From positions 89,156-153,155 of the forward strand of contig CACOBG010000003.1 in NCBI GenBank assembly GCA_902625415.1: DNA of 64,000 bases. Direction: 5' to 3'. Position numbers and translations under genes: made by a program. Numbering within the stretch: the first letter of the stretch is position 1; the number at the start of each line of letters is the position of its first letter. This stretch comes from an uncultured SAR86 cluster bacterium (GTDB lineage: Bacteria; Pseudomonadota; Gammaproteobacteria; Magnimaribacterales; AG-339-G14). Positions 47,302 to 49,627 of the stretch are shown here, one piece after another. The notes beneath the pieces were generated by a model that saw only the letters and a list, made by a program, of their open reading frames with translations, searched no databases and was not told the origin of the DNA.

Positions 47302-48609
47302 TTATTTTGAAGCTTTGTCTATAGCTTGTGAAATATCTGCAATGATATCTTCAGCATTTTCAATACCGATTGATAATCTTACATATCCAGGTGTCACCCC
47401 AGCAGATTCTTGTTCTTCAGGAGCAAGCTGGCTGTGAGTTGTAGTTGCTGGATGGATAGCAAGAGATCTTGAGTCTCCAATATTTGCAACATGATATAGA
47501 AGCTCTAGGGAGTCAATAAATTTACTTCCAGCTTCTTTTCCACCTGGTAACTCAAATCCAACAAGTGCACCATAACCACCGGTCATGTATTTATCAGCCT
47601 TTTCTTTTTCAGCACCTTCGAAAAGGCCTGGATAAGTGACTGATTGAACTTTTTTGTTGGAGGCTAAAAATTCAGCAACTTGTTGTGCATTGTTGGCATG
47701 TTCACGCATTCTCAAAGGCAGTGTCTCTAATCCTTGAATAAACATCCAAGCATTAAAGGGACTCATAGCTCCGCCTAAGTCTCTAAGAAGTGTAGTTCTT
47801 AATTTAAGTAAGTAAGCAAACGGTAAGCCCATGTTTTTGGTCACTTGCTCATCCCAGACAACTCCGCCATAACAAGGATCAGGAGTATTTAAGGCAGGCT
47901 GTCTATCTGCTCCAGCTTTACCCCAATCAAAATTACCGCCATCAAGGATAAGTCCTCCGATAGTTGTTCCATGTCCGCCAATGTATTTCGTAGTTGAATA
48001 AGTGGTTACCGCAGCACCGTGGTCAAACGGACGACAGAGAACTGGTGCAGCAGTATTGTCTACGATCAAAGGTATGCCATGATTTCTTCCTATTTCTGCA
48101 ACTTCACCAATTGGAAATACTTGAAGTTTTGGATTGGGCAGAGTTTCTGCAAAATAAGCTCTGGTTTTATCGTCAGTAGCTTTTTCAAAATTAGCTGGAT
48201 CTGTTGGATCAACAAATCTAACTTCTATTCCCATTTCTTTAAGGTTGTTTTTAAACTGGTTGTATGTTCCGCCATACAAGTGTGAAGAAGAGACAATGTT
48301 ATCCCCTGCTCTAGCAACATTTTGAATTGAGTATGCCGATGCGGTTTGTCCTGAAGAAACAGCTAATCCTGCTGCTGCTCCATCTAAAGCAGCCATTCTT
48401 TGCTCAAGAACATCACAAGTTGGATTCATGATTCGGGTGTAAATATTTCCGAATTCTTGCAACCCGAATAAGCTTGCTGCATGAGCTGTATCGTTAAACT
48501 GGTAACTTGTAGTTTGGTGAATGGGAACGGCTACTGAACCAGTAGTTTCATCATTACGCCACCCTGCGTGCAGAGCAATCGTTTCTAAATTTTTTCCTTC
48601 ATATGCCAT
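47302..48609 (-). CDS. metY: O-acetylhomoserine sulfhydrylase (aminocarboxypropyltransferase)
   Basis: TIALHAGWRNDETTGSVAVPIHQTTSYQFNDT, FGNIYTRIMNPTCDVLEQRMAALDGAAAGLAVSSGQTA, YSTTKYIGGHGTTIGG. Confidence 0.96.
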   Translation of the reverse strand: MAYEGKNLETIALHAGWRNDETTGSVAVPIHQTTSYQFNDTAHAASLFGLQEFGNIYTRIMNPTCDVLEQRMAALDGAAAGLAVSSGQTASAYSIQNVARAGDNIVSSSHLYGGTYNQFKNNLKEMGIEVRFVDPTDPANFEKATDDKTRAYFAETLPNPKLQVFPIGEVAEIGRNHGIPLIVDNTAAPVLCRPFDHGAAVTTYSTTKYIGGHGTTIGGLILDGGNFDWGKAGADRQPALNTPDPCYGGVVWDEQVTKNMGLPFAYLLKLRTTLLRDLGGAMSPFNAWMFIQGLETLPLRMREHANNAQQVAEFLASNKKVQSVTYPGLFEGAEKEKADKYMTGGYGALVGFELPGGKEAGSKFIDSLELLYHVANIGDSRSLAIHPATTTHSQLAPEEQESAGVTPGYVRLSIGIENAEDIIADISQAIDKASK

Positions 48610-48629
48610 GGTTTATCTCCATAAATTAT

Positions 48630-48663
48630 TAAAAAAAAACCTGTTTGCTTTCGCTAAACAGGT
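48630..48663 (-). terminator. Leader attenuator upstream of metY
   Basis: Minus strand ACCTGTTT-A-GC-GAAA-GC-AAACAGGT hairpin followed by T9, in the 5' leader of metY. Confidence 0.88.
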
Positions 48664-48671
48664 CAAAAAAA

Positions 48672-48724
48672 ATCCTGTTTAGCAAATTTTATAAAGCGTT
48701 TGCAAGTCGGTTAAATCAACGCTA
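48672..48724 (-). promoter_or_regulatory. SAM-II (SAM_alpha)-type riboswitch aptamer upstream of metY
   Basis: Minus strand TAGCGTTGATTTAACCGACTTGCAAACGCTTTATAAAATTTGCTAAACAGG: P1 AGCGT/ACGCT, conserved GATTTAA, TTGCAA and GCTAAA blocks; aligns without gaps to the SAM-II crystal construct as I remember it. Confidence 0.9.
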
Positions 48725-48766
48725 TAAATGCAATATACACAAAAATATCAAAAAAGAGAAAAAAAA

Positions 48767-49627
48767 ATGAAAGATTTTGAAAGTTTGAAAACTTCTATAA
48801 AAAATAAAGTTTTGACGGTTGTCTTTAATAGGCCTGAAAAAATGAATACCTTTTCTGGACAAATGTTAAAAGATATCTTGGAGCTTCTTGATGAGGCTGA
48901 AAAGGATGATGACATTCGAGCAGTTATTTTTACTGGTTCTGGAAAAGCTTTTTGTGCAGGAGCTGACCTATCTTCAGGTGAGGATACGTTTGATATGTCC
49001 GACAAAGGCAAGGCTAAGACTGAAGTTAAAAGAGATACTGGTGGAATACTTACTTTAAGATTGTTTGATTTTAAAAAACCATTAATTGCAGCAATAAATG
49101 GAGCGGCTGTAGGAGTAGGTGTGACTATGACACTTCCTATGGATGTCAGAATATGTTCTGAGAAGGCTAAATTTGGATTCGTGTTTGCTAAAAGAGGCAT
49201 CGTTCCTGAAGCTTGTTCAAGCTGGTTTCTGCCTAAAATTGTCGGTATTTCTAATGCTCTGCAGTGGTGCCTGTCTGGAAAAATTTTTATGCCTCAAGAA
49301 GCTCTAGACAAGGGATTGGTTACGGAAGTTACTCCAGAAGATAAATTACTAGAAAAAGCCGAAGAAATAGCAACCGATTTTGTAGAAGCTACTTCTAGCC
49401 TTTCAGTAACTCTTATCAGGCAAATGCTATGGAAAATGTTAGGCGCTGATCATCCTATGGAAGCTCATAAAATTGACTCTAGAGGAGTATATTCACTTGG
49501 TAAAACCGGTGAAGCCAGTGAAGGCGTTATGTCTTTTTTAGAAAAGAGAGAGCCAAACTTTCCTGGAAAAGTTAGCAAAGATTTGCCTGAATTTTACCCA
49601 TGGTGGGATGACAAAGAATTCAAATAA
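48767..49627 (+). CDS. Enoyl-CoA hydratase/isomerase family protein
   Basis: VVFNRPEKMNTFSGQM, FTGSGKAFCAGADLSSG, AAINGAAVGVGVTMTLPMDVRI; ORF extends to 48728 but ATG 48767 is the better start. Confidence 0.93.
   Translation: MKDFESLKTSIKNKVLTVVFNRPEKMNTFSGQMLKDILELLDEAEKDDDIRAVIFTGSGKAFCAGADLSSGEDTFDMSDKGKAKTEVKRDTGGILTLRLFDFKKPLIAAINGAAVGVGVTMTLPMDVRICSEKAKFGFVFAKRGIVPEACSSWFLPKIVGISNALQWCLSGKIFMPQEALDKGLVTEVTPEDKLLEKAEEIATDFVEATSSLSVTLIRQMLWKMLGADHPMEAHKIDSRGVYSLGKTGEASEGVMSFLEKREPNFPGKVSKDLPEFYPWWDDKEFK

Follow-up and report, generated by a model that had tools for sequence, protein, structure and literature searches.

The metY gene of an uncultured SAR86 cluster bacterium carries in its leader what we consider, with a probability of roughly 0.9, to be a SAM-II (SAM_alpha, RF00521) riboswitch combined with a transcription-attenuation platform of OFF logic, as judged from sequence comparison and modelled folding. 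The leader most likely senses S-adenosylmethionine (SAM) and would stop transcription when SAM is plentiful. In the window, that is, the whole stretch of 64,000 nucleotides analyzed, the element runs on the minus strand from 48724 to 48630, with the same sequence as quoted in the first-pass annotation; it is 95 nt long and covers the region 20 to 114 nt 5' of metY, whose ATG at 48609 follows about 20 nt 3' of it (Table 1). The score of the encoded protein against TIGR01326 is to be read against a cut-off of 495.1 bits, and its closest relatives (98 to 99% identical) come from single-cell genomes of the SAR86 cluster, a gammaproteobacterial group of surface-ocean heterotrophs.

Table 1. Features of the metY leader and the gene it precedes (coordinates of the window)
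Feature	Position	Strand	Basis
SAM-II stem-loop, P1 AGCGTT (48723-48718) with AACGCT (48700-48695)	48695..48723	-	covariance match, compensatory changes
Aptamer 3' strand GCTAAACAGG, also antiterminator 5' arm	48674..48683	-	covariance match, leader alignment, folding
Antiterminator hairpin GCTAAACAGG/CCTGTTTAGC, 10 bp, -13.5 kcal/mol	48653..48683	-	folding, leader comparison
Terminator hairpin CCTGTTTAGC-GAAA-GCAAACAGG, one bulged A, -11.7 kcal/mol	48640..48662	-	folding, compensatory changes
U9 tract (T9) of intrinsic terminator	48631..48639	-	sequence; U-tract in every aligned leader
metY, O-acetylhomoserine sulfhydrylase, 435 aa, controlled gene	47302..48609	-	TIGR01326, 596.6 bits
Probable -10 box TATATT	48732..48737	-	inferred from sequence reading; same context in other genus members
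Shine-Dalgarno GGAGA	48616..48620	-	sequence reading

The first-pass annotation had named the element a SAM-II-type switch and had suggested a search with the Rfam SAM-II/SAM_alpha model, folding of both states, and a comparison of related metY leaders. When an 801-base stretch around the locus was searched with all Rfam models, RF00521 matched over all 79 of its positions with 35.8 bits (E 2.6e-6), 0.2 bits short of the gathering score of 36, which is why the default Rfam scan of the window missed the locus and reported tRNAs only. In a search of the whole genome (1.22 Mb), the metY locus was the top RF00521 match (E 9.5e-7), followed by a weaker one of 26.3 bits on a different contig, and control genomes gave no match at an E value of 0.01 or below. 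The copies of the element in close relatives scored 36.0 to 39.9 bits. The SAM-II long-loop family RF01726 has the core in common with the element but was rejected, since its 26.6 bits were far under its gathering score of 44 and RF00521 fitted better. SAM-V (RF01826) reached at best 18.9 bits genome-wide against a gathering score of 41, and that elsewhere than at this locus; with SAM-V at chance level throughout the genome, both SAM-V and a Pelagibacter-like SAM-II/SAM-V tandem were rejected, as were the remaining Rfam near-matches at the locus (JA04, PyrR, and others), which were far under their cut-offs and chance-like.

The stem P1 that had been described as AGCGT/ACGCT is present, with 6 bp rather than 5, and closes a loop containing the conserved GATTTAA and TTGC. 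The aptamer 3' strand forms the pseudoknot P2 with this loop, GC pairing with GC at 48703-48702 and GG with CC at 48710-48709; the roles of single bases in the GATTT..TTGC..GCTAAA ligand pocket we take to be those seen in the crystal structure. The complementarity over 10 nt between GCTAAACAGG (48683-48674) and CCTGTTTAGC (48662-48653) was confirmed exactly. A 10-nt complement was reached by 154 of 5,000 Markov resamples and is by itself weak evidence; it is the conservation across SAR86 that convinces. The GAAA-loop terminator ending in T9 was likewise found, with the correction that its stem has one bulged A, because of which a simple terminator scan had returned nothing. The Shine-Dalgarno sequence lies outside the aptamer, antiterminator, and terminator helices.

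Among 40 genomes of the family to which the window belongs, 33 carry metY, and a match to aptamer plus terminator stands directly 5' of the gene in every one of them. Of the seven family genomes without metY, G036 alone has such a match, which there precedes an ompW-family gene; the other six have none. Across the order, a match was present in 87 of 203 genomes. The cores GATTT, TTGC, and GCTAAA are invariant in the 33 distinct leaders, the U-tract is kept, and double changes occur at 8 of 19 pairs. They amount to 42 cells, whereas shuffling gave 13.3 on average and did not attain the observed value in any of 500 shuffles. P1 is paired in 98.5% of cells, with compensatory changes at three of its six pairs, and the terminator stem is paired in 93%, with such changes at three of nine pairs. 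Two pairs of P2a show double changes, C-G becoming U-A in up to three leaders per pair, while P2b is invariant. The leader comparison thus found the cores in 33/33 and covariation in P1, P2, and the terminator. The complementary arms are retained in relatives as well, 93.3% of antiterminator cells being paired, but no double changes were found in the antiterminator among the 33 leaders, and a U-A to C-G change of the terminator in 7 leaders breaks one antiterminator pair. Little change is to be expected in a strand that pairs with three partners, so the lack of antiterminator double changes is compatible with a switch, though the conservation is no proof of the antiterminator.

Folding of the two states agreed with the proposed anatomy. 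In the growing transcript of the window, the antiterminator takes over once the 5' terminator arm has emerged and stays at a probability of about 1.0, whereas with GCUAAACAGG held as a proxy for the SAM-bound pseudoknot, a constraint only, as the folding tool has no pseudoknot model, the terminator forms with a probability of 0.99. The same held for nearly all the leaders: terminator probability exceeded 0.8 in 31/33 when the strand was held, and antiterminator probability exceeded 0.7 in 32/33 before the 3' arm was made. At full length and equilibrium with the strand free, the terminator was preferred in 17 of the 33; because these leaders favour it even when free, their decision must be kinetic and fall while the RNA is still being transcribed, as it does in other attenuators. 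The anatomy and the constrained folds together describe an attenuator in which terminator and antiterminator have a strand in common, the antiterminator being in competition with the aptamer, and the mutual exclusion of the two hairpins, as it was originally drawn, is borne out by these folds and by the 33 leaders.

Given the probable -10 box, transcription would start around 48729-48725, directly at the aptamer; a sequence scan of the locus found no good -35 box for metY. An enoyl-CoA hydratase open reading frame (48728-49627 of the window, plus strand) diverges from metY, with a listed start that overlaps the promoter of metY; its true start is probably an ATG near 48767, which would give the two promoters roughly 40 bp between them. 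In the proposed mechanism, RNA polymerase would start at the aptamer, and when SAM is scarce, the free GCUAAACAGG would pair with the emerging CCUGUUUAGC before the terminator 3' arm exists, so that metY would be transcribed. When SAM is plentiful, GCUAAACAGG would be locked in the SAM-II pseudoknot and CCUGUUUAGC would pair with the terminator 3' arm; formation of the U9 terminator would then stop transcription, so that high SAM would mean metY off. SAM binding, termination, and regulation in vivo are all inferred for this leader.

It could be argued that this SAM-II aptamer works chiefly at the level of translation or RNA stability and that the hairpin with its U-tract terminates incidentally or constitutively (as a leaky terminator) instead of being switched. 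Such a reading would accommodate the 17 leaders that favour the terminator at equilibrium without a held aptamer, the lack of compensatory changes in the antiterminator, and the metY leaders of another SAR86 family (L054, L066, L068, and L069), which keep the aptamer without a U-tract. We nevertheless regard it as improbable, as the terminator 5' arm is complementary to both the aptamer strand and the 3' arm in 93% of cells each, the antiterminator is favoured in 32 of 33 leaders before the 3' arm exists, and the Shine-Dalgarno sequence is outside all these helices. The sub-threshold Rfam score would also fit a degenerate SAM-II relic or a chance likeness, with an ordinary terminator alone before metY; the presence of the element before all 33 metY genes of the family, and the invariance of GATTT, TTGC, and GCTAAA while P1 covaries, make this very improbable, more so than an action on translation or stability. 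SAM-dependent attenuation therefore remains our preferred reading.

The metY leader element belongs to an already known type of switch. The first-pass annotation had found a transcriptional attenuator surprising on the view that SAM-II is best known from translational control, and translational control as the rule was mistaken: papers of 2005 and 2007 report terminators as frequent on SAM-II, many representatives having putative intrinsic terminators and, immediately ahead of P1, a promoter (Corbino 2005, PMC1273637), and in Rhizobiales and Rhodobacterales metY was found to be the core target of SAM_alpha (Leyn et al. 2014, PMC4239095), so that the claimed surprise falls. The element is not unusual in Gammaproteobacteria either, as 25 of 369 sampled genomes of the class, which in GTDB may include former Betaproteobacteria, have SAM-II matches above the cut-off. 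Like the described RF00521 representatives (PMC1273637), it has a single stem plus pseudoknot, an invariant core, a downstream terminator, metY as target, and a promoter a few nucleotides before P1; it differs in its shorter, A+U-rich loop, its score 0.2 bits below gathering, and its gammaproteobacterial host. The Pelagibacter SAM-II/SAM-V tandem (PMC9481103, PMC2704228) also places SAM-II and then an intrinsic terminator before a methionine gene of a marine oligotroph, but the SAR86 genome has a single aptamer there and no significant SAM-V match genome-wide.

In a tree of 82 MetY proteins, SAR86 MetY is nested in alphaproteobacterial MetY, with PS1/OCS116 alphaproteobacteria as the sister group. 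A branch with 99/96 support sets apart the metY genes that have a SAM-II leader within 260 nt, SAR86 and PS1/OCS116 among them, the leaders having been labelled by a pattern search with a covariance check on a sample. This check confirmed all three PS1/OCS116-type leaders tested (54.9 to 62.6 bits) and found no SAM-II at those neighbouring alphaproteobacterial loci that it covered. SAM-II did turn up at L128, a distant locus from Ignavibacteria, where it lies further upstream; SAM-II may therefore have come to precede metY more than once. The PS1/OCS116 leaders (L102, L106, and L110) have the aptamer class, an orthologous metY (71 to 73% identity), and a terminator in common with the SAR86 element, and differ in their stronger match (55 to 63 bits), longer P2a, and unrelated terminator sequence. 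Since SAR86 MetY adjoins genes that also have SAM-II and terminators, the switch probably came with the gene. The simplest reading is that an ancestor of SAR86 probably acquired metY and the switch together from marine alphaproteobacteria, the direction of transfer resting on the nesting and a midpoint root.

Terminator-type SAR86 leaders also precede metX, gamma-synthase-type, peroxiredoxin-like, and ompW-family genes. In two of those before ompW-family genes (L041 and L052), a SAM-I/IV aptamer (about 61 bits) comes after SAM-II and its terminator, which would put an outer-membrane protein gene under double SAM control; this arrangement has been described before (PMC9481103). The four metY leaders lacking the U-tract terminator seem to have switched platform, perhaps to one acting on translation, and two SAM-II-like leaders before TonB-receptor-like genes (L064 and L067) have GAGCTTTGATCC in place of the usual core.

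The weaker RF00521 match in the genome of the window (C4:72703-72795; L155/L002) is a member of a second SAM-II-like subtype (also L149-L178), which was present in 64 of 203 SAR86 genomes, absent from the samples of 369 genomes of the class and 399 of the phylum except for the window's own genome, and not found in the viral contigs searched. It has the core ATCGTGATTTGATCCTATTGCCGCGAT..GCTAAAACGGAA, a nearly frozen sequence, and a conserved tail TTCCCAGGATTTAA, with no U-tract or terminator and no obvious masking of a Shine-Dalgarno sequence; covariation tests were uninformative because almost nothing varies. It precedes bhmT, metH-like, mmuM-like, desaturase/AlkB-like (PF00487), and lipoprotein genes; to our knowledge, the desaturase/AlkB-like and lipoprotein genes are not known members of a SAM regulon. 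In two genomes (L156 and L178, in G076 and G074), the subtype occurs twice in tandem before a desaturase/AlkB-like gene. Tentatively, and with the odds somewhat against it, SAR86 may have a genome-wide SAM-II regulon of two architectures, the terminator type and a seemingly SAR86-specific subtype acting on the targets just listed, in whose TTCCCAGGATTTAA tail the UCC and GGA segments could pair mutually exclusively. If true, this would make the tail an expression platform of a kind new to SAM-II. The second leader type is more unusual than the metY leader, though peripheral here.

The Rfam default cut-off misses the metY switch in this genome. Being compact and having two well-delineated states, the element is a convenient test of SAM-II transcriptional control. 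Its history suggests a riboswitch and its target gene travelling together, and in these abundant uncultured gammaproteobacteria of the surface ocean, methionine synthesis is predicted to be under an RNA switch of alphaproteobacterial type.
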